Below the pieces are notes generated by a model, which made no database searches, was not told where the DNA came from, and was given only the letters and a program-made list of their open reading frames with translations. DNA of 64,000 nt from positions 28,249,094-28,313,093 of the forward strand of contig JACMZG010001911.1 of assembly GCA_018340805.1 (NCBI GenBank), in the 5' to 3' direction. Made by a program: the position numbers and the translations under genes. The DNA is from Microvelia longipes (Eukaryota; Arthropoda; Insecta; Hemiptera; Veliidae). Numbering within the stretch: the stretch's first letter is position 1; each line of letters begins with the position of its first letter. Positions 10,901 through 49,800 of this stretch are shown in pieces.

Positions 10901-13900
10901 GAAAAAATAGAAGAGGCTTTTAGATAGCAAGCCAGAAGGGAGTTAAGATTATTGATTTGTTTATAACCTTACCATAGTTACTGTCTACGCATGCCCATTA
11001 CTATATAGTTTAACAGTCGGTAAGGTTACAATATTCCTCCTAATTTATTTTATATGTTATTTTAACATCTAGGCATATGCAATCAATATTATGTAACCAA
11101 TAGAGAAAAACAATGAGAATTTTTTTTTACATGAAAGCTGGGGTTAAAATATTTTTTTTAACAATTATATGCGAGAAGAAAAATACTTTAAACTTTGGAG
11201 ACGCTAAATTATGTCAAACGGTTTTGATTGATATTTCTTGGGATCTGCATATATAGATAAATAATAGATTACAAAACACTTTTACGACTCAGACAATTGT
11301 TATTTTGAAATAAAAAATTAAAAATCTTAGTTTAATAATTTGGGTTATGATATAGAAGTGAGTAGATAAAATATAGCTTCGCCTCGGAAGTCAAATCGTT
11401 AATTAATTGCCTTGGTTTCGCCTCTAGAGGTATTTATAGCCTTTCCTCGCCAGGCTCGCCTTTGACTCGAATGCTTGACTTATAACTAGTCGCTGTACAA
11501 TTCCATTTTCATGCTTGGTATACAATATCTATTATTTTATCGACCAACCATTTATTTGGTTTTTGTAGCTGGGTGTTTTCTCTACTCCTCATGGGACGCC
11601 ATGATGATAGGTGCTGTAGGAGCATTCCTTACTTGCACAACTCAGCCACTTTTCGATTATATTAAAGTAGATGACCCTGTTGGAGCTGCTTCCGTCCACG
11701 GTAGGATTGATCGTTCTTGGTACTATGAATTGTTCTTATAATAATAATACCTTATAATAATAATACCTTAAGTCTAAATAAGTGGTAATATAAACTTAAA
11801 TGTTGTTTCCCGTGAATTCTTAATTTTTTTTTTCTCTCATTATGAGATTTACTAAGTATTATTAGAATTTAATTTCTTATTTTAATTTAATTTTATTTGT
11901 ATACTTTCAATTTTTTTTCTTTTTATTTCATATTCATATATTTTTTTTTTTCTCATTTATAATTGAATTTTTTTTTTTTTTTTTAATCAATTATTAAAAT
12001 TATTTTTAATTTAAATTTTCAATGTATCTATTGATAATTATTTTGTTTTAAATTTTATCAACTCTTCTCACATCTAAAATTAAAATAAATCAATAATGAG
12101 TCTGGATGATATCTGCTATTTTATAGTCTACTGCTAATTTTATCTATTTTTTTACTTAAAATCTAACAGATGACACCATTCTTTTTTTTTTTTTTTATTT
12201 AAAATATTTAGTTCTAAATTTATATTGCCTACAGTTATTTTAAAAAGTATACAACACTTTTATTATAGTGATAGTTCCTGATGTAACCTGAAAAATGTAA
12301 AACTTTATATTGTTAAAAACTTAACTTTTATATCTATAAAATATTTTTTTTTTATATAAATTTTTTATAATTATAATAATTTTAATTTATAAGCAATTGG
12401 GCTAAAAACCCGTTATATTGTAATAAATAAGACATTTTATTAGCAATTATATTTTCTTGGTCCTGACGCTTACATAAAATATTTTTAGGTATATTTTAAC
12501 TTCGATTACCAAGCTATGGGGAAGGTCATAGAAGCCCAGATAATAAACAGCTATATACTAAATTCTTGAAATTCGTAGAACTGACTGGTGATAAGGGCTA
12601 TGATAAGGCCTTCATTTTCCAAGCAATGACATAACTATGTATGGCATAGTTTGCATTACATATATTATAAATACACATCAAATCCGATGTGATGAGGAAA
12701 CGTTCCAAGTTACCCCAAACCTGTTTTCTTCTAAGACGTTTAATATTGTATAACTTTTTTATCATATAGATCGTATTTTGCTTAAATAAGTTTTTACTTT
12801 TGCACGTAACCCATCTAGGTAGCCCATCTTTCTACCCTAGTTCCCAGGGCAGACTTTTCTTTTATATTAATAACACCAAAAAATCTTTTACGCATGTAGA
12901 ATTTATTTGATAACCTTATTTTTTGTATGGCCAATATACAGGAATGTCAGGCATGTGGGGAGTACTTGCTGTTGGGTTATTCGCAAGGAGTCCTGAATAT
13001 CTCGACACGACAAATGGAAGAAATGGTTTATTTAAAGGTAAGTTTATTTTCAGTGATGTCTCACTTCCTAAATTTGTTTTTTTTATAAGCTTAACGGCTA
13101 ATGCCACGTGTCTAATATGTAGTGTATACTATTATACAGTAAGAAACATTTCAAATTCACCAACATGAAATCCTTAAAAGTAGATACAGTAAAAACATAG
13201 TTGTTGTAATTGATAAACTAGTGTCAGAGGAACATCATAGATAAGCTTGTGTCAGAGGTACATCATAGATAAGCTAGGGTCACAAAGGTACATCATTGAT
13301 AAGCTAGTGTCAGAGGTCCATCTTAGATACGCTAGTGTTAGAGGTGCATCATTGATAAGCTTGTGTCAAATCTACATCATAGATAAGCTAGTGTCAGAGG
13401 TGTATAATAACTAAGGTAGTGTCAAATGTACTTTATAGATAAGCTAGTGTCAGAGGAACATTATAGGTAAGCCACACTGGTTTATCTATAATGTTCCTCT
13501 AATGATGTACAGTATACCTTTGTGACACTCACAAAGGTACACTGTACATCATAGATAAGCTAGTGTCAGAGGAACATTATAGATAAGACACACTGGTTTA
13601 TATATAATGTTGACACTCACAGAGGTACACTGTACATCATAGATAAGCTAATGTCAGAGGTACATCATAGATAAGCAAGTGTCAAATCTACATCATGGAT
13701 AAGCTAGTGTCAGAGGTACACCATAGATAAGCTAGTGTCAGAGGAACATTGTAGATAAGACACACTGGTTTATATATAATGTTGACACTCACAGAGGTAC
13801 ACTGTACATCATAGATAAGCTAATGTCAGAGGTACATCATAGATAAGCTAGTGCCAGAGGTATATCATTACTAAGCTAGTGTCAAATGTACTTTATAGAT

Positions 13901-16900
13901 AAGCTAGTGTCAGAAAAACATCATAGATACGCTAGTGTCAAATATACATCCTACATACATACATAGATAAGCAAGTGTCACAAAGATACATTATAGATAC
14001 GATAGTGCCAGAAGTGCATTATAGATAAGCTAGTATCACAAAAGGTACATCGTAGATAAGTTAGTGTCAGAGGTACATCATAGATAAGCAAGTGTCACAA
14101 AGATACATTATAGATACGATAGTGCCAGAGGTACATCATAGAATGTCAGAGTCAGAGGTACATTATAGATACTTTTTGTTAGAAAATATAGTTTTTTGTT
14201 CATTTTAACATTATATTAAGTTAAGGAAAGGAATTAGAATGTAAGTTTATAAAGTTAAAAAGTGCTGTCGTTTTAAGTAAAGTTTATAAATGAAACAACA
14301 GCAGATGTTAACAAAGTATGATGCTATGAATACTAAATTGAAACTATTATAAAAACTTGATCTTACTAAATTTTAAGTAATACAAGAAGAAAATAAATTA
14401 TACGTTTACTAAACACGTATTCTGCTAATTTCTCGTCAATACATAGATAAAATATGTATCGTTATTGTATAAAGATATAGACTCCAAAAATATGAAGTAA
14501 ATTAAATCAAACCTCAAGAATGGTTTCAATTATTAGAGCTATAAATATAGAGATGAACTTCTAAAAAGTAAATAGTATGAAAATGACTGTCATTGAAACA
14601 GTCATTTTACAATTCACAGTTTAACAGTTTAAAAGTTTATTTATAATTTAACAGTCATCAACAAACAAACAAAAATTGTTTGCAAAAGGGTTTGAAAAAT
14701 TCTTACCATTATGGTAGTACTAATTAGAGGTCAGCTATAGAGGTTTCACCACGACTCTATTTTCGATGACTTAAGTTGTTAAGAGCAAAATAAACTCCCA
14801 CTCTTGTTTTATAGTAAATTATTATCATTTTATTTATCTTTTCCGTAATTTTCTTGGGCTGGGCTATTTTTTACTTTTCCTATATACCTACTAGGTATAT
14901 AACTAATAAGTTTGCTCTTAAAATACAAAACCAAGCGTTCACCTGAATACTTTATATTTAATATTTAAGGTAGCAGATGAACTCAGATAAGCTTTATGCT
15001 TTCTGTTTAAAACAAATCAGACCAAAGAACTTTTTGTATCAATGATTAGGTTTAATTCAAAAGCAACCCAAGTTTATTAACTTTGTGTATCAAAACTGAA
15101 TAAGAGTTATGAGATTTAAATTTCTGACTTATTTTGCAGAATTAGTTTAATTATTCATTATCTATAGAAATCAAACAAATGCAGGAGTAAATATTGTTAG
15201 AAGTACTAAGAAATAAATATACAAGACGAAGTAGACCAAGAGGCGTCATTTACTTTATTTATAAACCATCTTGATTAAAAAGTATTTAAAATGGAAAATA
15301 TAATTAAAATGAAGAGATCTTTGACGTCTGAAGCTTTTCAACTCACATTCGAATGGAATAGTCTTACGTAGATAGTATGTATGGAGTGTCTGCAGTGACG
15401 TCAGAGAAGGATCCATATTGCAAGGATGATAAGGCCTAACTTCATTAATATTAAAAGGAACAAGAAAAACCAACCCACATATAAAATACAAACTAATCCT
15501 GTTTCCTTTTGCCGAACATTTTTCCTATTTCTGTTTAAATAAAAGTATTGAAATAGGAAAAATTGTTCCTCCAATAAATAATAAAAATCCTTACATAATT
15601 TTAATGGCGCTCACCATAGAAATATATATGGAAATATAATAATATAATGTATTGGTTGCATTTAAATAATTAATAAGTAACTTGAACATTTTCGATTATT
15701 ATTTTAATATTTGGAATTTAAATTTCTTGAAGACTACAGTCCTTTATAAATATTAATTTATTTAATAAACTTTACATACATCTTTACAACGTTTCATTGA
15801 GCGAAGCTCAACATCTTCAGGTGAAAATCAAATGAAACTAAATTAAGTAATGTAAAAAATTTTTATAAAACGAAATATAAATTAATTTTGAAAATGACAG
15901 AAAATGTCAGTAAACCAAAATATTAAGGAGGCATAGACAGATTATTAAGATGACGGTGATTTGTAGACGGAGGTACTGTATTTTTAGGGGGTCTTTTTAA
16001 ATTTAAAATATTTGAATAAATGCTATTTATATGTTAGTATCCTGTTTTTTATTCATGGTGTTGGGGTCAGTTTTGATGTAAAGACTTTCCAAAATGCGTC
16101 GTTTGTTCAAATGTTTTTCGGAATGTAATACTTTAACATTGTCGTTATCAATTTTATGTTTTTTCTTGGTCATATGTTCCGCTATAGCTGTATTTGTGTC
16201 TAAATTGTCTGCATTTTTATTATGAACCCTAAGCCTGTTTAGAAATAACTTTTATTTATTTACATTCCGAAAAACATTTGAACAAACGACGCATTTTGGA
16301 AAGTCTTTACATCAAAACTGACCCCAACACCATGAATAAAAAACAGGATACTAACATATAAATAGCATTTATTCAAATATTTAAATTTAAAAAGACCCCC
16401 TAAAAATACAGTACCTCCGTCTACAAATCACCGTCATCTTAATAATCTGTCTATGCCTCCTTAATATTTTGGTTTACTGACATTTTCTGTCATTTTCAAA
16501 ATTAATTTATATTTCGTTTTATAAAAAATTTTTACATTACTTAATTTAGTTTCATTTGATTTTCACCTGAAGATGTTGAGCTTCGCTCAATGAAACGTTG
16601 TAAAGATGTATGTAAAGTTTATTAAATAAATTAATATTTATAAAGGACTGTAGTCTTCAAGAAATTTAAATTCCAAATATATATCATACCAGTCCAACAA
16701 ATTTACTCTTTTATTATTTTAATAAAATGAACTATAAACAGAACAAAATTGCGGAGACTTTTCACTGTTGTAGATAATTTTGTCCTTTCAACTCGACTGA
16801 TTAAATATAACCTTCGCTCAATCTTAGAGAAGGTATCAATGTTTTCTATGGTGCTTATGGCTATAGATAATTTTATTTACCCTTTCAACTATTTCCGTTG

Positions 16901-23852: not shown

Positions 23853-24912
23853 ATGGAATATTACTGACTAGTATCGAAGTTAGCCCCCGAGCCGAAGGCG
23901 AGGGTCCTATCTTAATTACCTGCAGAGGCAAAGCCGAGGCAGGTAATTTTCATTTTGACTGACAAGGCAAAGCCGAGGCAGGTAATTTTCATTTTGACTG
24001 ACGAGGCAAAGCCGAGGAAGGCACATATACGAGTCAGTAATGTTTCCTTTCCTGCCTTGTTCCACATAATATTTTATCTGCGAACAGTAATAAATCAAAA
24101 CTAGCATTGTTGAAAAACTTATTACGTTTGTATAATGTTTAAATTTACATTTTCTTTGACTGATATTACAGATCTTATCATCGAGAAAGTTGACCACAGA
24201 GTAGCGCTCGAGTTTGTGTTTGACAGTTCTTTTAAATACGCTAACACAATGTTTTTACTTACATTCTTTACTTTTTTCTCTGAGCACCATTCTTTGAACA
24301 CTTCATATGCTTTGGCATACCTACTTCCTGATTTGCCAGGTAGTAGGCTCTCTTTGGCATTTGTAGCTATTTCCAAAACATCCGGCGGGGGTATGTTCGA
24401 AAAGTTCGGCTATATCTTCGACGATATACATCACAAAACGCTATAGAATCGCTATAGAATAAACTAACTTTTAAACTGTATTAAATACGGGTTCGTATGA
24501 TAAAAGTAGTGAATGACTCGACAAAAAAAGATGAGACAATAAACCCAAAACAAAAAGTGTTGCCTTTAATATAATCAATAAAATGTATTTCTAATTAAAG
24601 ATTTACATTACAAATTGTTTTATTTTAATTAGTTAAATAATGTAATTATTCATTATATAAATTATTAAAAAAATTCAATAGGCTTTTTATTATTAACTAA
24701 TTATGTTTACAAAAATTATCTATTAACTTTCTTTACCAGCATAGGCTCGCAGGAGCGGCTAGGAAATGCTACATTCCTGCCTAGGCAGGTAAAGTGCAGT
24801 TATTCATGACTGCATTATTATAATTACCAGCCGATCTGGGAAATGCTACTTTCTCGCCTAAAATTAGTTCAGTAATGCTTCATTTTCCTGCCGTGGGCAG
24901 ATAAAATATATT
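23853..24912 (-). mobile_element. Tyrosine-recombinase transposon relic (Crypton-like), with hairpin module
   Basis: Minus-strand coding at 24395-24122 encodes the N-terminal DNA-binding half of a tyrosine recombinase: LLPGKSGSRY, then KAYEVFKEWC, VLAYLKELS and LWSTFSMIRS. This is a pattern I associate with Crypton-type recombinase proteins of insects. It begins after a possible AG at 24396 and stops at a TAA near 24122; no catalytic half (R..H..R..Y) is present, so the element is dead. Outer short inverted repeats 'ttttatctgc' (24072-24081) and 'gcagataaaa' (24897-24906) bracket it. Beside it lies a module (23853-24048) whose ends pair ('ggaatattactgactagtat' against 'atacgagtcagtaatg..cc') and which holds three 39-bp tandem units containing 'ggcaaagccgagg'. 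Similar modules occur at 30984 and 47351. Confidence 0.65.
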
Positions 24913-26825: not shown

Positions 26826-27002
26826 GTATCCTTATTAATCTGATATTTTAACTGATTTGTTCCCCCCCCCCCACCACTCATAAGATAAAATGGAAGATGT
26901 TCACCACCTGAATAAAGTTACACACTGTTTGTTTTAATATTATAGATTGAATATTTCCTACTTAGTTGTGAGAAGACTAGATAGTTCTTTGTTTTGTTTC
27001 AG

Positions 27003-27135
27003 AATGTCTGAGAAGGATTACTATTTGTTCCTGGTGCTGTGCTGTTCAGCAGTAGTCTGTAATTCTAAAACTCTCCTCAAACCTTCTTATTATCAGCCAC
27101 AGTACACCGACTATAATAATAACTATGATATTCAG
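27003..27135 (+). CDS. Signal-peptide exon of the DH44-like gene
   Basis: The acceptor 'ttttgtttcag' ends at 27002 and the start ATG is at 27004, so an upstream non-coding exon is implied. The exon encodes 44 residues: MSEKDYY, a hydrophobic stretch LFLVLCCSAVVC typical of a signal peptide, then a polar Tyr/Asn/Gln-rich propeptide ending YDIQ. The donor CAG|GTAAAA at 27136 is good and leaves phase 0, exactly what exons A, B and C need. Assignment to the same gene rests on strand, phase, order and signal-peptide character. Confidence 0.75.
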
Positions 27136-30100
27136 GTAAAATATAGTTTGCATGTAAGCTCATATACTATTTGAGACTATAATTAACCATGTTGCAAATT
27201 TTGGCCAAAATGGCGGATAAGAAAATTTGTTTTCCGGCAAATCAGAACTAACTTTTTGCGAACTAAAGATTAAACATTTATGAATTTTGAAAAACATCAT
27301 TTTCTTGGTCTTTTTCTTTAAATAAAATTCAGTAAACAGCATTAGAGTCTTAAAAGTTATAATATAACTTTTTTAATGGTTTTAAAAAATAGCATAATTT
27401 TGCTTTTTTCTAAATTTTTAACAAAACCATGAGGTAATTGATAAGATTAGAAATTTTCGAAATTCGAATTTAAGGAGATTTTAAAAATTTAATATAATTA
27501 GAAGTTTATATTGTAAAAGTAAAAATACGTATAATTGCGTATTACATATAAAAAGTAAATTACGAAGACTTTTCATAGGCTTGCTCTCAATAACAGCCTA
27601 CACGTTTCTTCGCGAAATGTTTTGATTGGTATGAGATAAAACAAGCCAGTAATACACTTTCCCTCTATTAAGAGAAACAGCAACGAAAACTCAGACTTTT
27701 CCCTTGCCTCAAAATAATTTAAAATTGTCAAGTACTTTAACTGTAAATGAATCATTATTTCAAATTAAAATGTCATCTAGTCTTAAGAGCGTTAAAAACT
27801 TTTGTTTCATTTACTGTGAATGTGTAAATGACTAAACCGATCTTCAAAAAGTTCTAATGACTTTAAATTTTCGTTCAATAGTATCTAAATGATTTTATAG
27901 TATTATAGATCTAACTCGTCAGTACTATTAATGGTAAAAATCAGTTCAAGAAAAAACTTGAAATATACATTATAACAATAGTATAATATTAAAACTAAAG
28001 AGCTTATAAGGCTGGAAACTTTTGTCATTTTGACCAAAATAATTTTTGGCTACACTATTTATAAGTAAAACTAATAATGTAAAATACATTATTTAGTTCA
28101 AATAATAAAAATAAAATAAAATTGTATTGATGATGAAATTATCGACAAAAGAGTTTAGAAATCTTAAACTGTCGTGAAGAAAGTTGAAAAAATATTTCAA
28201 AATAAAAAAGCCCAATTAAGTTTTAAAATTAAAAGAAAATCTCTGTTTTATACACTTGTATTTTTAATAGACATTTCATATTTTTATTACAAAACTGGGT
28301 CAATGTACTTTATAAATTAGGTTGAAAACGAAGGATGAAAAGTACCAACCCTGTAAACAAGAGAAGTGTAATGAGATCATTAACGTTTTTAATTATTTTT
28401 TTTATTTGATTGTTTAGAAATAAGTGCTACAGGTTGCTAAACTAATCTAGTTGCTTGATTAAAGCCAATATTATTTTTTTGCTTAAAAACGCATTTTTTC
28501 ATTTTTTTATCTCCGCACACTTTCTAAATAGGGAAAGGCGCTATTAAGGTACAAAAAGTTAATAGCAAAGGTAGTTACTGCTAGTTTAATCAGCAGAAGT
28601 AAAATTATAGCCTCAGCTAAATTGAATTCCTGTATCAAAGGCTTAATATTCACATTGATTATACACCCTAAAAGAAACTTATATATTTTTTTATATGAAA
28701 TTTTTAATTACTTCTAATATTCTTTACCTTGTGACTGATCAGACAAGGAATCTTATAATCTTTTATCTTGCGCATGTTAGAACTGCTTTCTTAATATTGC
28801 TGTTATTTTGTTGTGCTGCTAGCTTTCATCCAATCAAATATCATCTATTAAGGATTTATTCAAAATTTTACCGAAAGAATGGAGATCTAAGAAATCATCG
28901 TTTTCAGTCGTCAATCCTATCGAATTGTTAAGAACTGGAGTCAAAGCAATATCTGATCAGCATGATCATGAAAAACAAATACAACGAGCTAGCAATAATA
29001 GACAACTTTTGTATGACCTAGGAAAACGACGTTGCGACAGGTCCATTAAAAATTTATTTTAAATTGAGGAGATATTTGGAGTAGGTGTTTAAGTCGAAAA
29101 TTTTACATTTTTAAGCCTATTAATTCTATAGTTTTATTTGAGCAAAAAATACGTTTTATTACAATACATGTTGTTTTAGTAAGTTCGTTATTAATACTGG
29201 TGAGATAAAATAATAAACTATGGACTTAATAAATTGAGTTCTTTAATTGTCATACATATGGTTCAGTATTTATAGTATCTGCACTACACACCAAAGATTT
29301 TTTGGTTAACACTACAGTTGAGCCTAAATAAAACTAATATTGATGCTAAATATGTTATGATCATTTGGATTAAATTTGCATTGTTAAAATAAGTTATCCA
29401 TTATAAGGACTAATAATAGAATTCCCGGCTTCCAAATCACTCCTCAATTCATAAAAAGACAAGCTCAGTCATTGCTCTATACAAAGGTATATTAAATTAT
29501 ATAGTAACGTGAAAAATAATACGGCAAAAGAATAAATCCCTGACACAAGTTGCTTTGAAAATTAGTTGCTTCATGCTTAACTTAAAAAGCCATTCAAATT
29601 AATTTTCTTTAGCACACCCAAATTCAGTCAAAATATTGAATTGTCAATAAATTGTCTTTGAAATGACAATTTTGTTGCGCTCACACATAAACTATGTCTA
29701 GATCTGTATACAAAATATTTTCGCTATAGTTTCATATAAGCACAAGCAAAATATTAAAATGACGCCGCATTTATTTATTTTTTTTGCTAGCTTAATAAGA
29801 GGGGTTAAGAATTTGCAGTAATCATTTTGATTTAATTTGCTGTATTTTTGGCTGATATGGCTATTTTCAAGAAGCATACATTTTAAACGATTTTAATGCT
29901 ATTTTTAAAGGATTTGAATGACAAAGACAGGTGGAAAGTAAAAAGAACATCGCTATCAGTTGTCAATCCAATTGATGTATTGAGAACTCGAATGCTGGTC
30001 AATTCCGATAAATATATGCATCATGAGAAACAAAAGCTACAGGCTGATAACAATAGAAACTTATTATCAGGCATTGGGAAACGGCATTGTGACAGGTTTT

Positions 30101-33100
30101 ATCACGATTTTTATTCAAGATCAAATGACAAACTCAGACATTTGCTCGCCTGATCATTTGTTTCAAAATTGTTCCTTAAAAAATCTACTTAAATGACTAA
30201 ACGATTATATCTATCGATCATTAAGTGCTTATATAAGCAACATAAAAATAACTGGGATCATGTTCCGTTAAGGGGAGGGTAAAAGTACTGAGGTCTTTCC
30301 TGGTGCAATGTGTGAATAAACTCTAGGAGTTAACAGCAGAGAGTCATTCGGAAGAGTAGAAACAGATACTATTTATTTAGTAATTTGGGGTAGAAACGCT
30401 AAACTGGTTTAATCAATGGATTCAATAAAAAAAATTGGTTTTATAAGTACTAAATTATTTTTAGTTTGTATTAGCACCAATTTTTTTCAAACTTAGTGAG
30501 TGCTAAAATTGATCTAAAAAAAGTATTCCTATATAATAATTCCTATATAATAATTAAAAGTCCTTATTCATATCTGGAGCACGGCAGTGCCCCCGCCAAG
30601 TTTAGTGGTCACTGGTGTACCATCCTTTACAAGCCATTCCTATTCCTAAAAAAACCTTTTTTCGGCACTGCAGTAACTGATGGATTAAACGAGAACATTC
30701 AGCCCTACCAAAAAATGTCCCTTTGAAATGTATAGTAACTTTCACAAAATAAATACGTACCTAATCATATATTTTAATGTTTACTTTTTGTGAAGAACTT
30801 ACTATTTCCATTCTAGTAGACCATTAATAAAGAAATAATAAATTATCAACTTTTGACTTCTAAGAAGAATATTATCACAGAAAAAAAAGTAGTGGACAAA
30901 AACAGTTTAGCCAATTTGACCTTTCAAAGAACTCACTGCAAGGAACTCCTTACCATATAATAGTTATTTATGCACCTAGTGATAAGTCCATTATAACCCT
31001 GGTCACTGTAATGATTCCTAAGGCTGAAAGCCGAAGGAATCGTGATTTATAAATCCCGAGGCTTTAGCCGAGGGAATTATTTATATTAATCCCGAGGCTT
31101 TAGCCGAGGGATTAATAACAATTAGCTCCCGAGGTTTGCCGAGGGAGATAATTTGACGAGGGTTATAATAGGGCATTATTCACATGGTGCATACAAAATT
31201 TTATCTCCAGAAGGAAAAACAATATATATGAAACAAAAAAAACTGTATTTGTTTATATATAGAATCAGTGAAACATAATTATACTATTTTATGCAAAATT
31301 AACAAAAATACATTGTATAATATATTATACATACAACATAACCACATACATACATAACAAACAAATATGATAATAAACAAAAATATATAAATACCTAAAT
31401 GGTCTATTTTAACCGTATTTGCTTCGTCATCTATACAAGACGGTTGAGGATTATCGGGGATATCGGGAAACAATTCATTTGTGTCGTTTACTATCATTTC
31501 ATTATCACTTTCTATCGTAAACAACCGCACTAAATCCTTTTATAATAAATATAACAGGAATATTACTTGAAAGATAAGAAAAAACTTAGTAAAAAAGTAG
31601 GTATTCATCGTTAAAACAGATTTGATAAAGCAATTATTTGTTTACAGACAGCTGGGATTTAAACAAATGAATCAGTGCTGCCAACATAACTTTGTTTACT
31701 CAAAATTCTTTACGTAGATTTTTGAGTCTGTAATTTTAACTACTCAATAATTAAGTTGGCTAAGCTGGATTATAACCCGGCGGGAAATAATAAATTATTA
31801 TTTATTACTAATTTATTATTATTAGTATATTAATATTTATTACTATTTATTAATAATTATAATGACGGTCATTATTACATAAAAACAAGCCCCGAAATAT
31901 TTTGATTATTACCCTTCTGGAGATAAAAAACTTTTCAATAGTCTAGGAGAGCCAGGTCTTAAAAACTTACAATGTGTGCAGTTTTAAACCAAATTTATAA
32001 AAATATTCACCAAATGATTACAATAAAGAAACAGTCTTCCAATCCAAAGGAACTTCACATAATAGCACAAACTCAAAATTTTGGAAAATCAATTTTTTTA
32101 ATTAGTTTTTCTTTTAAATAAGTGGTTCCCTTTTGATCATGACTAAGCACAACTAGATGAGGATTTTTTTCGTAGCTCACCAAATTAATAGACTAGTGAT
32201 TTTTCTTCAAAACCATGTAACGAAAACCAAAACTTATGTTTGCTAAAAAATGTATATCAATGATTTTTCAAAGAAATTTAATAATCTTACAAAAAATTAA
32301 GAATTTTTTTCACTTATATGAACTTAACAAATTAACAAAAAACATTTATAAAATACAAAAAAATCATTAAATTTTGGATTTAAAACAGTCCATATTAGGA
32401 ATCTCAGCACAGTTAAAACTGTAATGTCACAAAACATCTCTGTTCACAGCTAATAATCATCAGCTATTTATTTTTCAACTTAGTAACTATTATTGCCTTT
32501 AATTTAGTTTTCTATTTATTCTCTCAAAGCTAGAGCCTCTCTTTTAATGTAGAATTAAATTATTTTTTAGAATTAACTATTATAATGTTTGTTCCAGAAA
32601 TATATATAGTTTAAAAGTTACACAATAACTAATTACTTTTAATAATTTCTTATCACTTAAAAGGACTTCTCACTTTTCCTTTAATTTTCTTATCACATCT
32701 CCTTATTTCTTATTAGGACTTATCACTTCTCCTTATCACTTAAAGATAACTTTCTTATGAAAGAGACTAATACTCTTTGAGAGTATTAGCGTATTAGTCT
32801 CTTTGTTCCTTATCCTAAAGAACATCATAAACAATATTTTATTATATTAATTTACAATAATTAATTCTTAAACTTTTTGTCTTGTTTATTTTCTTGGTAC
32901 TTATTGTTCGTGTGCACTGTGTTTTATAATTGTAGAAAATTTATGTTCTATAACACTTTCTTTCTCTGTAGCTTTAAGTAGACTATTAAAACACTTTTCT
33001 ATAGATTTAAACTAATAAATACGTCTTCTTCTAATAAAGTAATAAGTTTAGAAACTTTAAGTTAAAACTTTAACTGAACAACATATAGTATGAACAACAT

Positions 33101-33603
33101 ATGTTCATACTTTCATAGAATGGTATTATTATTATTTTTGTAGATTAATCTAGATATTGAGACTTTTCTAAAGTTTTATAAATTATTGATTGATTGTTTA
33201 TGTTAAGGACACTAATGATATTTACAATTGGAAAGTTAAGAAAACATCATTATCAATTGTGAATCCGATCGAAGTTTTAAGTGCTAGGATGAATGTCAAC
33301 AAAGATAAACACAGTCTACATGGGAAAATGGCCCAGCGAGCCAATACTAACAGACAGCTGTTACATGATATCGGCAAGAGACACTGTGACAGGTTATTAC
33401 ACTGTACTACACCACTCCCAGACAAACTCAGTTATTCATTGAAGTTTTTAAAATATATGATCACACAAACATTGAATTTTACAAATATTAACCAAGAAAA
33501 ACAATTTAAATTAATCAAGAAAAACACTTTAAAAAACAGCAGTCTGATTTTAAAATTATTCTCAAATCATTTGATAAAAATACATCAATGTCATAAAACA
33601 TAA
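27003..33603 (+). CDS. DH44/CRF-like diuretic hormone gene with three tandem peptide exons
   Basis: A secreted neuropeptide precursor acting through insect CRF-like (DH44) G-protein-coupled receptors; known members regulate tubule fluid secretion. One signal-peptide exon (27003-27135) precedes three homologous exons: A 28853-29040, B 29911-30095, C 33208-33392. Each begins at an AG in phase 0, matching the phase-0 end of the signal exon. Each carries a dibasic site (SKK, VKR, VKK), the family block SxSxVNPI, a C-terminal Gly-Lys-Arg amidation and cleavage signal, and CDR at a common GACAG|GT border in phase 2. Serial inclusion would shift the frame, so one peptide exon per mRNA is inferred. 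No shared 3' exon was found. The alternative is that A, B and C are terminal exons reading to their own stops (A near 29060, B 30153, C 33603). Alternative DH44-family isoforms are, as I recall, known in Bombyx and Tribolium. The peptide-family call is strong; the splicing model is inference. Confidence 0.85.
28853..29040 (+). CDS. Peptide exon A: 42-residue DH44-like peptide
   Basis: 188 nt, phase 0 to phase 2, after acceptor 'tctattaag'. It encodes a 14-residue spacer ending WRSKK, then a peptide starting SSFSVVNPIELLRTG, with internal DQHDHEKQIQRASNN and ending RQLLYDL before Gly-Lys-Arg-Arg. The predicted amide is on Leu. It is the most diverged of the three: Phe replaces Leu at position 3 and it has two extra spacer residues. 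The GACAG|GTCCAT donor is weak. Unspliced, the frame stops within six codons. Confidence 0.8.
29041..29910. other. Spacer between peptide exons A and B
   Basis: AT-rich, with no coding signal recognised. AATAAA-type sites occur, e.g. near 29210, which would be usable if exon A is terminal. Confidence 0.5.
29911..30095 (+). CDS. Peptide exon B: 43-residue DH44-like peptide
   Basis: 185 nt, phase 0 to phase 2, after acceptor 'atttttaaag'. It has a 12-residue spacer DLNDKDRWKVKR, then a peptide starting TSLSVVNPIDVLRTRM, with internal DKYMHHEKQKLQADNN and ending RNLLSGI before Gly-Lys-Arg. It is closest to classical insect DH44 peptides (SLSIVNPxDVLRQR). The usual LLEIARRR centre is missing. 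After CDR the open frame could run 14 further residues to a TGA at 30151. Confidence 0.87.
30096..33207. other. Spacer between peptide exons B and C, with transposon relic
   Basis: Holds the hairpin-module element 30984-31928 and a small hairpin at 32760-32804 built from 'aaagagactaatac' and its complement, the same terminus as the MITE at 42689-43146. The remainder is AT-rich without recognised features. Confidence 0.6.
30984..31928 (-). mobile_element. Hairpin-module transposon relic, copy 2
   Basis: Terminal inverted repeats are perfect over 16 bp: 'ttttatctccagaagg' (31199-31214) against its complement (31913-31928). Beside the left end, 30984-31175 forms a module whose ends pair ('attataaccct' against 'agggttataat') and which holds tandem 'cccgaggctttagccgaggg' units. 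Inside, the minus strand has an exon-like stretch (about 31529-31395) with an acidic product (FTIESDNEMIVNDTNELFPD...) bounded by 'ggatttag' and a GTATTT donor. Layout parallels 23853-24912 and 47351-47945. Confidence 0.65.
33208..33392 (+). CDS. Peptide exon C: 43-residue DH44-like peptide
   Basis: 185 nt, phase 0 to phase 2, after acceptor 'gtttatgttaag'. It has a 12-residue spacer DTNDIYNWKVKK, then a peptide starting TSLSIVNPIEVLSARM, with internal DKHSLHGKMAQRANTN and ending RQLLHDI before Gly-Lys-Arg. The same length as exon B shows common origin by duplication. The frame stays open beyond CDR to a stop at 33601. DNA similarity to exon B's 3' flank continues about 50 nt ('gacaaactcag' at 30127 and 33421, offset differing by 3 nt), which could mean the coding frame continues. 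Confidence 0.85.
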
Positions 33604-36600
33604 AAAATTAATAGTATGTGAGTACCTAACTTTAGTACAACACAATAATAAAACACCACGATAATATTTACAACTGTAAAAATTAACTAGAAATAAATAA
33701 TCTAGGACTCTTAAATTAAAACGCCCCCACACTCAGGCTTTGCCTTGTGGGTTACATGTATACAGTAGTGTAAATTTGTTTTTGAATTCTTTTTTTTCTG
33801 TGTATACTTGTAAATAAAGAAATTGTTTTAAAAAAAGAACAGTTATAAGAAGAAAGAAAAGACCAATTAGAATTATTGGTAATTATAGAAGACGAAGATT
33901 CCCATGCATTGGTTGACAAACTATTGTTAAATTTAATATGACTGCAAAGGGATATCTTAGTGATTCCTTTAACAAAAAGGCTAGTTGTCAAAGGATATCA
34001 ATTGACAACTTTACCATTGGGTGCATAAATTTGTATTATTCTACTGATGTCATTATTGAAGAAAAATAAATCCTTTGTCGATTACACATATTTTTTCAAA
34101 CATTAAAGGGATCATTATTTTTTTCATTTAAGGGGATTATTTTAAATATAAAAGGATATATAAAAAAAATTTAACTCCCATTCTCAAATTTTACAAATAT
34201 TTAAAATAAATAAATTTAAAATAGGTATGTGTTTTTGTCCATCTCTAGGACTGGGAACTTACGGGCAATGTCTCATCTATTAATAATTAAAGCTAAGACT
34301 AAGAACAATAAACAAGGCAAAAATTAGTTACAACCTCCCCAAAATAAATGATTTTATTACTTTATCTTAATGGACCAGAAATACATTACCACAAGTCAGT
34401 TGTAAATCAAAACAGGCCAAACAAATAAATCTTGTTCTCTTCTATCAGAGAGTTTAACTTACTTTTTACTGTTTTTTTTTAGTATTATCAAAAGGACTGA
34501 TATGTCGTAGAGTTTAGTTTATGAGCAATAACTGAGTTTGTCATGTCTGGTATATATTGGTTAAATTAATTTTAAAATTATTTTAAGTTTCAGATCAATG
34601 AGTTGAGAAATTCTAAAGGATTCAAACAGAGAGAGGTTAAAGATCGGGCGGCATAGTCATTATGTATTTATTGTGTATATTTATATATGATTTTAAATTA
34701 TTAAGTATGTTTTCAGTATTTCTTGTTTCAGCTATCATCAATAAAAAGTTTGGTTCCATTTAAAAATTAATAACAATTGATTGAATACAATATATATACA
34801 GCACCTAAAAGTAATTTCCGGAATTGTTTTATTATTATATGCAAATAATAAAAATGGAATAAAAGTTACTTAACAATAATCTTTACACCAAACAACATAT
34901 TTTCATTAATTCTTTAAAGAAGAACCTCCTTTCAGCAATAATGCCAGACAGTGCCGCACTGAGATGTTGAGTCTTTCAATTCCTGAAATCTTACTTCTTT
35001 TTTTTTTAAAGTTTAATTAAATAATTAATCTTTATTACATTAATTTTCCTAAATAAATATATTTTTATATATATTCTTTCATTAATTATTCCTCTTCCAT
35101 CCTTATTTGTAGTAATTTAATTCACATTTAAAGCAAGAAGCAGACCAAAAAATAAAAAAAATATAAGTACCTAGAGTAAGATTGTGCATCAGGCTCGTAT
35201 CCAGCCAAGACAGGGGGAACCAATCCTTGAGAGGGCAATGTATCACTTTAAGGGAGACTTAAAGATCAGAGAGGACAGAGGACTCTTGTCAGAGAGAACA
35301 GATTTTTTCCACGGGGGCGACACCCTGGTCCCACCCTAGGCTTGTTGTTCATTCAGTTTTAAACTAAATGGAAACCTGATTAGTCAGTTTATTTTAACCT
35401 TAACTGACACCAAAGACAGGATATATCAGTCAAAACAAAAATAAATAAATTATATTTATTAGTCTTTCCTTTGACTAATTGAATAATAATAATCTTTGAC
35501 ATTCATATTTCTAAGAATACCAATTATTCATCCATATAATAGATTGTTGATATTTTACATATTTTATCATCAATAACTTTCTTGTCATCCTCTGATGGCA
35601 GACTGATCAAAGAAAAGAGATCAACTTGAATGGTGAACTCTCAATTCTAATAGAGTGCATGATTGAATTACTACTGTCATAATCACTTGTTTTATAATTA
35701 TTTTAAAAACAACACTAAACAACCTTACATAAAGGAATAAAAAGTCTCTTCACTTAATCCTTTTAGTTAGAACACCTAAAGAGCGTCCTAGGCCTCTGAA
35801 GGACTATATAGCTCGGCACTCACTTAGCATGACTGAAGATGACAAAAGTTGGCTCATGTTTTTTTAATTATATCAGATTTAGTGAATAGACTTGTTATTA
35901 TTTCATTCCTACACTAAATAAATTGCAGCCATCTATACTTATTTTAGCAACCTTACATTTTATCCATATAATATAGAAATGTATCTTAATACATAAAAAG
36001 ATAAGCTAAAGTCAAGAGAATGAACAAGCAATTAATAATACCGACTTCTAATAGGTTAAACAAACTCGTGAAGGTTATAGAGAAAAATTAAACAAAACAG
36101 CATAATAAAGCTAAAGACATTTTTTTTAAAGGGAACTCCTCTTGCCACTTAAAACCATATCACAAAAATATGAAATCATAAAATAAAGCTGAATAAGGTT
36201 TTACTCAAAGACAAAAAAATTAAAATAATTGTAAAATATGCAATATTTTCATTATCCATTATAATAGTTGTTTAAATTCTAAATAGACACAAGGTCCTCA
36301 AGCACATTATCTTATCTTGTTCTTAATGTTTACCTATCGACTTTGTGACATCAAAAAGAATAGGATAATTTGACAACACATCCTTTTTTATTGTATCACA
36401 TCCTTATCTTTGTAAAATTCAATTTTATCCCCCAAACTAAGGCCACAATTTCATCAGTATTTGGTACAAACCATACTGAAACCTACAGAAAACATCTAGC
36501 TTTGTTAGATTTTATTGGAGAGCGAAAAGTGAGTTCCTAAGTATAATAATATCAAAAATCAGAAGACGCTAGAATCACCAGCATAATTTGCTAAGCATAA

Positions 36601-37910
36601 GTCCAAATGTTCAAGACCTACAGCAAACAGCAATTTATAAAATAAAAAAAGGTACAGAAGGCAAACCAATATTTTTAGTGCATTAAATGTTTATTATCTG
36701 TTCTCAATAGAACAGAATTTTTTCCCATCAGTCTCAAAGCTGTGTTTATTTCTTGTCTTTAAATAAATTTATGTCACTTTAAAAAAATGTATTTACATCC
36801 ATCTTAAAATTTTATATCAAATTCGACAACAAATTTTAGAAACATTTATTAAAGAGAGAACCAAGATTATAAACAAAAGGAAAACAGTTAAAAATATATT
36901 AAAAGAGTCTGGGTATTGGTACTGAAACTAAAAAAGACAGAGTGGCAAAAGATTTTTATTAAATGATGTGTTTCATTAATTTTATCCATAAAAATACATT
37001 TGAACTATGTAAATTTGCCTTATGCAGGATGTATCCACTTATGCACCAATCCACTAATGGATACATTAGTGGTTGGTGAATTAAAAAAAAAATTCAATCA
37101 AATATAAGGTAAAGTAAAAATCAAATAAAGCCATGATGAAACTTCATTAATTCACTTTTAGTTTAAGTACGTAAGTGGTGAAATTTTAATACTATTTATT
37201 TGTATTGTTTAAATTAATTTGTTAATTTAATGATTTTAAATCAAATTAATTATTATTATATAATTAATTTGTTATTTGTATTCTATACATGTATAAACCT
37301 TTATAAAATACAAATAACCTATTCCGTTATGTGATTAGAGTGATACTGTTAATTTAGAATAAAATAGAAATCTGTTATTTCTGCACAACCTTTAACCGGT
37401 AATAAGTTCTAATCACATCTTATAACAAACCTATCAGAGACAAGAAATTAATTAGAATCATTGAATAAAACATTCTGACTGTAGCTTACATTATCCAAAT
37501 AGTTAGTAGATAAAATAAAAACAAAATATTTCCAAATAATTATTACTGACTACAAATGTTGGTCCTTTAACAATAATTTAAAACATTGTATAAATCTAAT
37601 AAACTAGATAAAAGAAAATTGTTAAAAACAAATTTTAGGCACTCATTTCTTGTATAATTCTTTAACCGAGGAATTAAAGGGGATAAAGAAATTGAAGTGC
37701 ATATTTTATATACCAATAGTGTAATCAATTCATAGCGCTGTCTTATTCATAGTACTTATTCATAGTGTAATCAAACCTCAAAAGAAAAAATGAGAGAAAG
37801 GACTAATATAAAAAAACAAAAAATGATTGGATACCTAACTGTATAAAGAATTTTTGTACTGTACAAAATATTTAAGTACATAAAAACAAAATTATTAACA
37901 AAGACATTGT

Positions 37911-38013
37911 AGCGCTGAGGTCTGCATGCTGGGCGAATTTCCTTTGGAATGTTTGCTTTACTTGCACACTCATCTAGTTCTTCCTCATAGTCTAATCCTA
38001 ATGAACTTGTCAA
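37911..38013 (-). CDS. Unassigned exon-like stretch, 34 codons
   Basis: The minus strand encodes LTSSLGLDYEEELDECASK followed by ANIPKEIRPACRPQRYN, after which the frame turns into low-complexity AT-rich sequence. Third positions and amino-acid mix look coding, unlike the neighbourhood. Possible acceptors are 'gacaag' or 'ttcattag' upstream; a poor GT follows RYN. I recognise no family. Two cysteines are present. It could be one exon of a small gene, a 3' exon of an unseen gene, or a processed relic. Confidence 0.25.
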
Positions 38014-38084
38014 AGTAGTTTTCCATTTTATTGTAAATTTTGACAGTTAAGAAACTTTGTAAGAAAGTAACCTTACAAACATAT

Positions 38085-43899: not shown

Positions 43900-46800
43900 C
43901 TATACAGAAGTTTCAGGGTCATCCCAGCTAAGTGAATACTGTCTCCTTAAATTCCTAGGACTGGATGCATTACTATGAGGAGCTGAATCCAATCCTAAAG
44001 ACTCCAGGGAGCTGGGGGGACGAGTGAAATCCCTGGTCTCAATACCAGGAGGAGACTCGGGAGAACTGATGGAACTAACTAGGGGAGTACTTTCATCATC
44101 TGAGAGCTGGTCTACTGTAGGGGCTGTAACTCGGACAACCGGTGCTATACTACTCACATTAACAGACAAACCGCCCTGCAAAGTACACAAAAAATATCTT
44201 ATCACAAAAAAACAAAAAAAAAATCATCTCTTAAAGTAGAAGAAGAGAAATTTAGTTTCATATCTTAGTCTTATTACTCTTACTATGTACTAATTAAGTA
44301 TAAATGCCAACAAGGAATAAGTATATTTGTTCAATAACTGTTTAAAAATTTACAGTATTAAATAATAAAGTGATAACCAATAGTTTTAAATTACAGATAT
44401 GCAAGTAAGGGAATATCTTAGAGAAAACTATAAACAGTTTACACTGAAACAATATAGGTTATACCTTAATAATGACCTTACTAGCCTTCTTTAATTAAAG
44501 GACTGTATTTGACCATTTAATTCTACAAGACATAAGCACATTCAAAAATTTTTTAGCTAAATTTAAACAGGTCTTCTTCTTCAGATGAATCTTGGAAAAA
44601 AATCAAGTCCTATTGTAGATATAACGGGTTGGTTTTAAGAAAATTTAAATTGGGGTATTAAAAAAAATAAAAAAATACTTTTTTTTTTAAATTATCTTAC
44701 CAGCTCCAAGTCCACCAACACCACAACTATATCCAAGGCTAGAGTAGTTTTTTTTAGGTATTCAAGTTTAAAAAGTTGACCATTAAGCAGCAAATGGTAA
44801 CAAATAAGCTCCACATTTGACAGCTTGTTTTTAAGTAAAAAAAAATTATACCCAGTATAATAAGAAACTAAAAATAATTTCAACTAAAAAACCATTATTA
44901 GCACTGCTATTCAAATATTATACAATACAGTAACATGCCACCATTATACAATGAATAATACTTATTCATAAGTATTTTCATCTTTTAGTCAAAATAATCT
45001 TATTTGCGTTAAAACGATGTAATTTTAAATTCATTATTAATAAAAGTACAAAACCTCCAGTATTATTTAACAAATAGATATGAATAAATATTTAAACAAA
45101 CTTAAAGTAAATACTGATAGTATGAAATATTTAAATTGGAACAATGAATTTGTTAGTCAAATAAATATGCAAATCCAAGGAGTTCTTGAAGGTTTTTCTA
45201 AAATTTAAATGAGATAAACAATTTAAGATAATTAGCATGGATTATGTGTGTAAATATTACCAATGTTGAGATTCTTAACAAGAAAATACTCAGGTAGTTA
45301 GCAGTAGAAGCACAGTATACAGGTAAGTAAGTCATTTAGTATTAAATTAGTAAAGATTTGATATAAATTTGAAATATTTTTATTTTATAAGCCCATTGGT
45401 AATGAGATAAAATATTATATTAATATATGAAGGGCATATAATATTAAAAGAGTGAAAATATTAGTTTACACATTTAACTATAATTTATATTATTATAAAG
45501 TTTGATACAACTGGAAATTCTAAATTAAAATTAAATATGAAGTTAATTATTAATAATTAAAAATACTTCAGTTATTTCACCATGGATATTTTTTCATACT
45601 AAAGTAAGACTTATAAATAAGCTAAAGGATATTCACTAAAAGTTAAACTAACAATAATATTATCATTATTTGTCACTATGGTATACAATTTTTTTTTTTT
45701 AATTTTAATTGTCTAGGAAGCTGATTTTCTCAATGTTTGTAGACATGAGTATGCCTGGGGTCAGGCGAAATATAATCATTTAAAGAAGTAAGAAGTTGTT
45801 ATTCCAGTCCCATCCAGTGTCTTAAAAAAGTTTAAACTAACAATATTGATTCATCAATTGAAATAATTTTAAAACTTAATAAAACCTGACAAATTTACAG
45901 GTTTTCATGTATGTAGTTTGGTCCTCAAAAATTATTACTTCAAAAAATTAATTGAATAAGTTTTATTTTTCTTGTTGGCAAACAAAAAGGTGAGTATCAA
46001 ATAAAATACAGTACACAGGGAGCACAAAATAAAAATGGCAATAGAGAAGGGGAAGGTTATACATATACATTCCAACAGAAAGCTTCATATCGACTACAGT
46101 TCAATTATCCAGTAAGTTTTTTGCAATACCTGTTGACTTACCCAATGGAAAACTGAGAGATTTTTTTAAGTCTACCAGGTTAATTTTATTAAATAATTTA
46201 TCCATATAAATTATACAATTGGCATAAACCCAAATTTTTGAAATACAAGTTATTTTTTAAGTGAATTTGCCACCAAAGCAATCAATTGATAACCTTCGGT
46301 TGCAATATAAAACAACCCCATTAAAACCTAATTAAGATATCTACATAAATACATTAAGAGGATGATGTTTCAAGTTGAAAAACATAATAGCCACAAGTAA
46401 CACCAAAAAAGTTACATTTTAAGTAATACTCAGTGTAAAGTCAGTATACAAGAAAGTAATGTTCAAGTGCAAACTTAAAATAGTTGACAATTACTTTTTG
46501 AGATGTTTTTGAGCACATTTTGTTATAAGCTTTACAGATAAATTATTTTTTTAAAAAACTGATTAACTTAAAGCAAATTGTCTCTGCTTTCCCAGGGATT
46601 AAATTATGTTGATTCTAATAATAATTCTAGAGCCACAATTAACGATTTTAAAAGAGTAAGCATGACAGGTACTGAAAAATTATTAAAATTGACTTTGTAA
46701 GAGAACATTTGAGAATTGGACCATTGTTAAAATAAAATTTGTTGTTGAAAATGGCCTATAAACCCACTTCCTATGGTATTATCGCTTTTTTATGCTCCTT

Positions 46801-49800
46801 GTATATCGTAATATAACAAAATAATAATTCTATTGATTGTAATAATAAACAAAAAAATTGGCACTAAAATTATTTACAAATAGTGTATGTTCCTTGTCAA
46901 ACACTTAGAGAAAATGTAATTATTTTTAATAGCATTTAAAATTTTGATGCTAATTATAAAAATATAAATACTATACCATTTATTCAAGTATAAATATAAT
47001 ATAATATAAATACTATCATTAAATAATTTATTTTTACCATGAAAATTCACTAAAATAGATTGAAAGGTCTGATAAATAAAAATGCTAAAAAAGTACAATA
47101 AAATAAAGAGAAGATAAATAAAAGAATGGACTCACAGCATTGTTATGATTAGAGTGTTCATCAACAGAGTGAGACCTCGGTGCTGAAGCACTCTGTATAG
47201 ATCGAGTGACACTAGCCGGGCTGCCATCTCCTACATAGCTAAGCAGAAGAGATGTAGACGATGGTCTTGCTACTCTGCTAGTGTTGTTACTTTTAGTCTT
47301 CTCATTCAGTAACTGGACAGTAAGAAATAGTTATTTATGTGCCAAGGTAGTAAACAATGCTATAATTTCCCTGAGTAGTTAATTGGTTCCTAAGGCAAAA
47401 GCCGAGGGAATCAAAGCATTTAACTCCCTAGGGAAAGCCAAGGGATTTATGTGTTTAACTCCCGAGACAAAGCCGAGGGAGGTAATTGCAAGAGAAAAAT
47501 AGCAATTCACTCCATGGCAAACAAGATTTTATCTCCAGACGTTGACATAATTTAATTATTGTTATATTCTTATTTTCATACGTTTAGTAGTATTCTTTTT
47601 CAAAATATGTTGTGTTTTATTTTAAATTTTCTGAATAAACATTCAGAAGTACAAACTACATGATTTTATTTGGACGTGCTGCCCCTCCAAAAAACAACTT
47701 CTTTTGACCTAAAACAGATTTTGAGCCAACAATTTTTTGTTTGTTTAGGCCTCCCTCATAAATTTCTGGGGTGCTGCCCAATGTGAAAAGTATTACCAAA
47801 ATTGGATTTAGAGAATAGCACACCCAAAAATGGATTTGATTGGCTTTATAATTGGAAAAACTTTTCTCTTTTGGGAGTGAAACATGTTTCTTGACTCCAT
47901 AAAAACTAGTCAACAAACTTCATTATACACTGTCTGGAGATAAAAGTAATTTAAAGTAAGAAATGAACTTTCATTTTTATAGTAAGAAACAAAAAAAAAG
48001 TTAAAATACCAGAAGAAAATGTAAACATGTACTTTTAAATGTGAACATATAATAGCTTAAGATAGAATATTCTGTAGCCATAATTTTTAGCTTTATTACA
48101 AAATTTCAATTTATCAAATTAATTGTAAAGGATAGTGCAAAACATTTTAAACAAATAAATTCAAAAGAGTGTTTCATGGTCAAAAACATGAAAAATTTAG
48201 GAATATTATTGGAAATGCTTTGAAATAATATTTTATGATGAGAAACTAAATAAAGGAATGATTTTGTAACAAATTGTCCTGATAAACTGTGATGATGGAT
48301 TGGAAGGGGTCAGTATCATGGTGGTGACTTTATCCCCCCCCCCCCTAAAGTAAACAGACTCATAGTAACAAAAATGTTGGTAGACCTGAGTTAAGCCAAC
48401 ATTTTTTTTAATATATTTTTTTTATCTATTTCACCTTGATATTGAGGCACAAAAATTATATAAAGTTATTGACTAAAGATAGTTTTTACAAATTTATCTG
48501 AACATGAAAGGTTTGAATAGTGTCCAATGTTACGTGTTCTTAAATGCACCACTAGAAACCATATTTCCGAGGCAAAGTTGAAGAAAGCAAACAGTAAAAA
48601 TGATGATAGCTAAATATAACTTACAGAAGTAGAGGAATCATTTCTTCTTCTCGACAATACAGGTGTGTCACCAGCTCCTACAGAGCTACCAGTACTCTGA
48701 GAGTCATATGTTATAGCTGTCCACTGGTTCTGCTGCAGAGGTGAATTCTAATAAAGAACAAACAGGTAAGTTGATAATATCATTAATTTATTTTAGCAAA
48801 TTTTCATAATGAAAATAATGCTTATGATTTGTTCGGATGACGGAAGTTGAGAGGGAGATCAATTCCGTTTGGATTCCTGACACGTAACGAATAGTTACAG
48901 TAACAAATACAAGATAAATTAATAAAACACCTAAACTGTTTTGTCAGCATTTATTCTCAGAACACAATTTCAACATTTTTAGAACTTTACAAAACAGCTG
49001 TGTCTTTGAATAAAACTAAAAAAACACAAACTTATAATGATCTTATAAATAGAAATACAAAGAAGAAAGAATAGGTAAGTCACCTGGAGTATAATCATAT
49101 CTGTTTCTTCATTCACACTATTGACACTGTGAGCACTCGATTGACTGGAGGTTCTTCTTCTAAAGTTTATAACTCTTGGATCTAAACATAAAGGATTTCG
49201 TCATTAAGGACCTCTGAAACGGATTTGTGTCGTGGTCCGAGGTTCGAATTCCGCCATGACGCCTATCCCATTAGGCGAATTTCCAAAGGAAATTCGCTAA
49301 AAATCAATATATTACTGATGAGACAACAATATTTGACAGAAGATTATGGAAAAATACATCCTGATAAGGTTTACGTAAACTTCTAGGTGAACCAAAGATT
49401 ATGAAGTAAGTTTGATATACTATTTAATCTTTAAGGTACACTAAGGTTCCACTTTTCCCTTAGCACATGAGAATATAAAATACACATTATAAACACACAC
49501 CTACCCCTACTCCATACCTCATAGGCATCATTATTTTCTATTGAAATTTGCTAATATAGACAACATATAACCCAGTATACATTATGTTTTAGTAAAAAAA
49601 AAACAAGTACAGGGTATTTCGGAACTTTGCATATATCGGATTCTCTATGCTGAATGCTCATCCTCCCTACTTCGGACTCGCTTCACTTGTCCTCAGATAG
49701 TAAATACATCTGTTTCATTCCAGCAATCACCATTCCAGGCACCAAACAAGTTCAATGCTACTTAACTTTTATGAACCAACACATCATGGATGTACTTGGT

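Follow-up and report, generated by a model that had tools for sequence, protein, structure and literature searches.

How many hormones does this locus encode, and how might three complete CRF-like coding segments be read behind a single start? The window, by which we mean the whole 64,000-nucleotide stretch of Microvelia longipes DNA that was analysed (GenBank assembly GCA_018340805.1, contig JACMZG010001911.1, forward-strand positions 28,249,094 to 28,313,093), holds one signal-type exon followed by three homologous CRF exons, here A, B and C, all on the plus strand. The reading that we favour, and regard as probable, is that this heteropteran bug has here a DH44 or DH44-type gene in which tandem duplication turned one peptide exon into three, and that the gene would yield one preprohormone per mRNA.

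A signal-type exon and three CRF exons

The signal-type exon lies at 27003-27135, and its 44 codons, counted from the ATG at 27004 (27004-27135; MSEKDYYLFLVLCCSAVVC...NYDIQ), run to a phase-0 donor, CAG/GTAAAA, that ranks at the 98th percentile of the window's plus-strand GTs. The hydrophobic stretch after the ATG is recognised by hydropathy alone, and the exon matches no Pfam family above the cut-off. Directly upstream, the acceptor-like sequence tttgtttcag ends at 27002, which makes a preceding 5' UTR exon likely. CRF exons A (28853-29062, 69 codons open to a TAA at 29060-29062), B (29911-30153, 80 codons open to a TGA at 30151-30153) and C (33208-33603, 131 codons open to a TAA at 33601-33603) are all entered through phase-0 acceptors, the phase of the signal-type exon donor.

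An earlier note on this DNA had claimed for each CRF exon a dibasic site, a SxSxVNPI start, 42-43 residues and a GKR amidation signal, and translation bears this out. The residues ahead of the peptide number 14 in A, 12 in B and 12 in C and end in KK, KR and KK, respectively; the predicted mature peptides are A (SSFSVVNPIELLRTGVKAISDQHDHEKQIQRASNNRQLLYDL; 28895-29020, 42 residues ending in YDL), B (TSLSVVNPIDVLRTRMLVNSDKYMHHEKQKLQADNNRNLLSGI; 29947-30075, 43 residues ending in SGI) and C (TSLSIVNPIEVLSARMNVNKDKHSLHGKMAQRANTNRQLLHDI; 33244-33372, 43 residues ending in HDI). All three keep the SxSxVNPI start together with an NRxLL end, and each is followed by GKR (29021-29029, 30076-30084 and 33373-33381), after which (R/H)CDR comes directly. 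In amidated form, their calculated monoisotopic [M+H]+ values are 4818.54 (A), 4946.62 (B) and 4848.60 (C). The claim of distinct, complete amidated-type peptides behind one signal exon likewise finds support in the sequence: a single signal-type exon is present in the stretches scanned, and all three CRF exons pass the Pfam CRF family (PF00473) cut-off of 22.1 bits, B and C with 30.0 and 30.7 bits and A narrowly, with 22.7 bits and a match in two stretches. The possibility that the window has a fourth CRF exon was rejected: when 2916 six-frame pieces were searched with a profile built from exons A, B and C themselves, whose own matches hold by construction, the next match had an E value of 5.6. 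The window contains no Rfam match.

When the three peptides were aligned to Rhodnius CRF/DH, none of 2000 shuffles reached the score of any of them, and each showed a start of the SLSxxNPxxVL type and an end of the NRxxL type. The LLLEIARRR core is absent from all three. The peptide DH37 of beetles likewise departs from this type of core, which we therefore do not treat as defining the family, and for this reason the locus is called DH44-type. The core is present in Rhodnius CRF/DH (PMC3843727), and a core of this type appears in Schistocerca and in the polyneopteran consensus without Dermaptera. Between SLS and the closing I, peptides B and C need no gap to align with the Rhodnius peptide (PMC3843727), with 11 (B) and 10 (C) identities in the N-terminal 15 residues and 4 (B) and 5 (C) in the last nine, whereas the middle 19 residues, where Rhodnius has LLLEIARRR, hold only two identities with each; peptide A needs a one-residue gap to align.

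Relatives of the precursor were sought in two protein searches, one of which returned no candidate and the other 46 candidates, none with E<=10; as the search requires shared five-residue words, the empty result marks a limit of sensitivity and not an absence. Whether DH44 in other bugs is its orthologue is thus judged from peptide similarity, and we take the locus to be a DH44 gene or a DH44-type gene, which is a looser claim than strict orthology. Peptide C, the sole query against solved structures, had no match at E 10. In a single-sequence AlphaFold2 model, CRF exon C is predicted to form one helix over residues 20-60 (mean pLDDT 74.3, pTM 0.38), which is weak evidence, since this helix also covers the processing site.

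Homology, age and selection among the copies

The three CRF exons are homologous in their DNA: local alignment of the pairs gave scores of 48, 41 and 47 against shuffle means near 10, no pair being reached by any of 300 shuffles, and from W to CDR the pairs are 64-65% identical. The 200 bases upstream of the exons are unrelated in all three pairs (alignment scores reached by 116, 243 and 135 of 300 shuffles), and a conserved sequence upstream of the CRF exons was rejected on this ground. Over the same W to CDR stretch, differences at codon positions 1, 2 and 3 numbered 14, 14 and 29 for A-B, 15, 12 and 31 for A-C, and 14, 13 and 33 for B-C. The NG86 estimates of dN were 0.32 (A-B), 0.29 (A-C) and 0.27 (B-C); dS came to 1.8 for A-B, and for A-C and B-C no value could be computed (-1 was returned), which we take as saturation. 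YN00 gave a dS of 1.9 for A-B and 2.0 for A-C, and no value for B-C. The excess of third-position differences over the whole exon indicates that the copies are old and selectively kept, so that over the exon as a whole they look like ancient duplicates held by purifying selection.

This constraint is unevenly spread along the peptide. The dN was 0.12-0.27 in the N-terminal segment and 0.11-0.23 in the C-terminal segment, and reached 0.52-0.56 in the middle segment, where dS was not computable and constraint is not clear. The N-terminal A-C pair, with a dN of 0.27 against a dS of just 0.58, goes against a simple purifying picture. Peptides B and C share 8 of the middle 19 residues, which suggests that the LLLEIARRR core was probably lost before the exon was triplicated. 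Since both CRF-type ends are kept and the divergence is greatest in between, a comparison of the three peptides could serve as a natural experiment on the role of the central helix.

Exon ends, splicing and the candidate precursors

The earlier note had placed the exon ends at 29040, 30095 and 33392. This is doubtful: the frames stay open to the stops that begin at 29060, 30151 and 33601, and the donors of A and B are poor. Scored with an assumed weight matrix, the AG/GT donors at these ends lie at the 72nd (A), 60th (B) and 94th (C) percentile of the window's plus-strand GTs. With a stop of its own in each frame and two of three donors poor, the CRF exons are more likely to be alternative last coding exons than cassettes joined to a shared 3' exon, and we prefer this arrangement, which is that of Tribolium.

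The donor of exon C is of moderate score and not poor, which leaves room for a shared 3' exon, and we regard it as possible, though rather unlikely, that A, B and C are mutually exclusive cassettes that would splice at AG/GT, in phase 2, into one exon downstream. Such cassettes would account for the CAG/GT found at the same place and in the same phase in all three exons, and the 94th-percentile rank of the exon C donor fits them; they also have parallels in the polyneopterans, where the CRF peptide sits mid-precursor (PMC7179676), and in Nezara, whose two isoforms are described as differing in the 3' region (PMC6250713). Against them, the common CAGGT can be explained by the common C-D-R codons, a purine at +3 is lacking from all three donors, and under the assumed matrix the scores of A and B are low. 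Past the donors, an 11-base match links B (offset 31) with C (offset 28), positions that differ by three. This is marginal and weak evidence, being reached by 4 of 300 shuffles when 60 bases were tested and by 64 of 300 with 120 bases, and exon A shows no post-donor similarity with either.

All seven splice combinations that were tried with the donors at 29040, 30095 and 33392 (three single-exon and four multi-exon joins) give a single CRF peptide, which comes from whichever CRF exon stands first in the mRNA. A multi-hormone precursor made by joining two or three CRF exons was accordingly rejected, as four of four joins keep no peptide but the first in frame, the second CRF exon entering out of frame or behind a stop. 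With one peptide per mRNA, the choice of exon would be the choice of hormone.

Three separate tandem DH44 genes, two of them with signal exons that we failed to recognise, are very unlikely. Tandem duplication could copy whole genes, and the 870 and 3112 bases between the exon ends (at donors of the 29040 type) and the next exon would give room for promoters. However, a search of the window with the signal-type exon found no second copy (next E value 1.1), and a scan for an ATG with a hydrophobic stretch and a phase-0 donor, at thresholds that we set ourselves, gave that exon as the sole candidate in 26900-27140, 27136-28852, 29041-29910 and 30096-33207, with none between A and B or between B and C. 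One signal-type exon in the four stretches scanned between 26900 and 33207 argues for a single gene. Still harder to credit is a single exon in use beside two decaying copies, for although the middle segment is poorly constrained and the expression of the exons is a prediction, all three are open, keep their cleavage and amidation signals and show the third-position excess over the whole exon.

In the triplicated gene with alternative last coding exons that we prefer, the signal exon would be spliced to CRF exon A, B or C, each mRNA giving one preprohormone; this would be cut by signal peptidase and then by prohormone convertases at KK/KR and GKR, and a carboxypeptidase and the amidating enzyme would leave one of three amidated peptides of 42-43 residues. 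Once released, these would be expected to act on class B, cAMP-coupled DH44 receptors. By analogy with Tribolium DH37 and DH47, the three peptides most probably differ in potency or in target cells. The two alternative peptides of Tribolium are reported to act on two splice forms of the receptor with unequal efficacy (PMC8040626), and a comparable division of labour at the receptor level may exist among the three predicted here.

Known counterparts, host lineage and surroundings

The suggestion of the earlier note that this architecture may be undescribed did not survive comparison, because it is already known from Aethina (PMC6585902) and from moths (PMC4926255). Aethina tumida is described as having four coding exons that give three mRNAs and as many CRF-like peptides (Veenstra 2019, PMC6585902), that is, as here, one signal exon and three CRF exons for three different peptides, and the trait that marks the Aethina/Tribolium type, one signal exon with duplicated CRF exons downstream that share a single entry phase, is present in Microvelia. 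The differences, as far as the published description goes, are that in the beetle the DH37 exon is duplicated beside a single DH47 exon (PMC6585902), whereas the Microvelia locus belongs to a true bug and has three exons of one coreless type. In the DH37-DH47 (Urn8) gene of Tribolium and Tenebrio, the first coding exon is likewise reported to be spliced to either CRF exon, of which there are two and not three; transcripts of the beetle design are described as confirmed (PMC6585902, PMC9552230). For Chilo suppressalis, DH41, DH34 and DH45 are tabled as CRF-DH and its splice variants (PMC4926255), so that three products are listed for one gene, in another insect order and with a likeness that lies in the listed products alone.

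Among Hemiptera, Lavore et al. (PMC6250713) describe two 3' splice variants of Nezara viridula CRF-DH that leave the predicted peptide unaltered; they mention splicing variants of CRF-DH in moths, beetles and Schistocerca, and present those of Nezara as previously unreported in hemipterans. Nezara thus resembles Microvelia in being a heteropteran with 3' splice variants, and differs in that both give the same peptide. A table in PMC10570428 scores DH44 as present for Lygus and as 'Not Found' for Rhodnius, the latter entry being in conflict with the Rhodnius peptide printed in PMC3843727. No multi-peptide CRF-DH gene of Hemiptera was found among the open papers listed, most subscription papers lying outside that scope, and what may be new here is the multi-peptide CRF-DH design in a true bug, together with the fact that none of the three peptides has the core. 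The locus would extend what has been reported on CRF-DH in hemipterans, the Nezara variants both giving the same peptide. Its triplication is probably independent of those in beetles and moths, and if it is transcribed as we infer, splice-selected diuretic hormones would occur in beetles, moths and true bugs, probably through repeated duplication of the peptide exon.

The neighbouring ammonium transporter gene (6585-13165, plus strand), which has at least six exon pieces, six of them joined by eye, places the window within Heteroptera. Four of its pieces were tested against Pfam, three passing the cut-off and one falling below it. Among the best 120 of 3859 matches (7992 candidates scored), the top scores belong to Heteroptera (Rhodnius 74%, Rhynocoris 73%, Nesidiocoris 73%, Cimex 71%, Apolygus 70%, Halyomorpha 68%), and insects other than bugs come next, for example Anabrus with 69%. 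In trees of 22 and 16 rows the window lies inside the heteropteran clade (support 100/98 and 96/93) and outside a group formed by the six rows from Cimicomorpha and Pentatomomorpha (92/89 and 93/90, below the tool's star level); its grouping with Ranatra is weak (81/59 and 75/69). AU tests rejected a grouping of the window with the two Reduviidae (p 0.014) or with the two Miridae (p 0.019); a group made of the window and all six rows from Cimicomorpha and Pentatomomorpha, with Ranatra left outside, was not rejected (p 0.18). We offer as a conjecture, unlikely when taken as a whole, that a coreless CRF-like exon was triplicated, independently of beetles and moths, in a bug lineage belonging neither to Cimicomorpha nor to Pentatomomorpha and possibly of aquatic or semi-aquatic habit. 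The resulting three hormones would diverge chiefly in the central helix and would each be adapted to a particular receptor form or target tissue, and the genome might have a further DH44 gene of canonical type; if such a canonical gene exists elsewhere in the genome, the present locus would be a second CRF-like gene.

Other features of the window are recorded here as separate observations. The region 26900-34000 contains 22 families of direct repeats and 48 inverted pairs, and short tandem arrays of 35-39-base units with a GCCGAGG motif lie at 31048-31154, between CRF exons B and C, at 23926-24021 and at 47398-47480. On the minus strand, open pieces at 43903-44223, 47088-47330, 48982-49200 and 37774-38046, some of them serine-rich and none with a Pfam match above the cut-off, may be exons of one gene. 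Also on this strand, an open frame at 24125-24409, with sub-threshold matches that include phage-integrase SAM-like domains, may be the remnant of a tyrosine-recombinase transposon, and a 135-codon frame at 55239-55643, which has no Pfam match, carries a basic GRPKSKW stretch and resembles what we take to be the end of a retrotransposon polymerase. A long C-rich stretch of low complexity with many overlapping short arrays occupies 46-1566, and just past the transporter pieces, at 13212-14171, lies an array of about 33 diverged copies of the 28-base unit GATAAGCTAGTGTCAGAGGTACATCATA.
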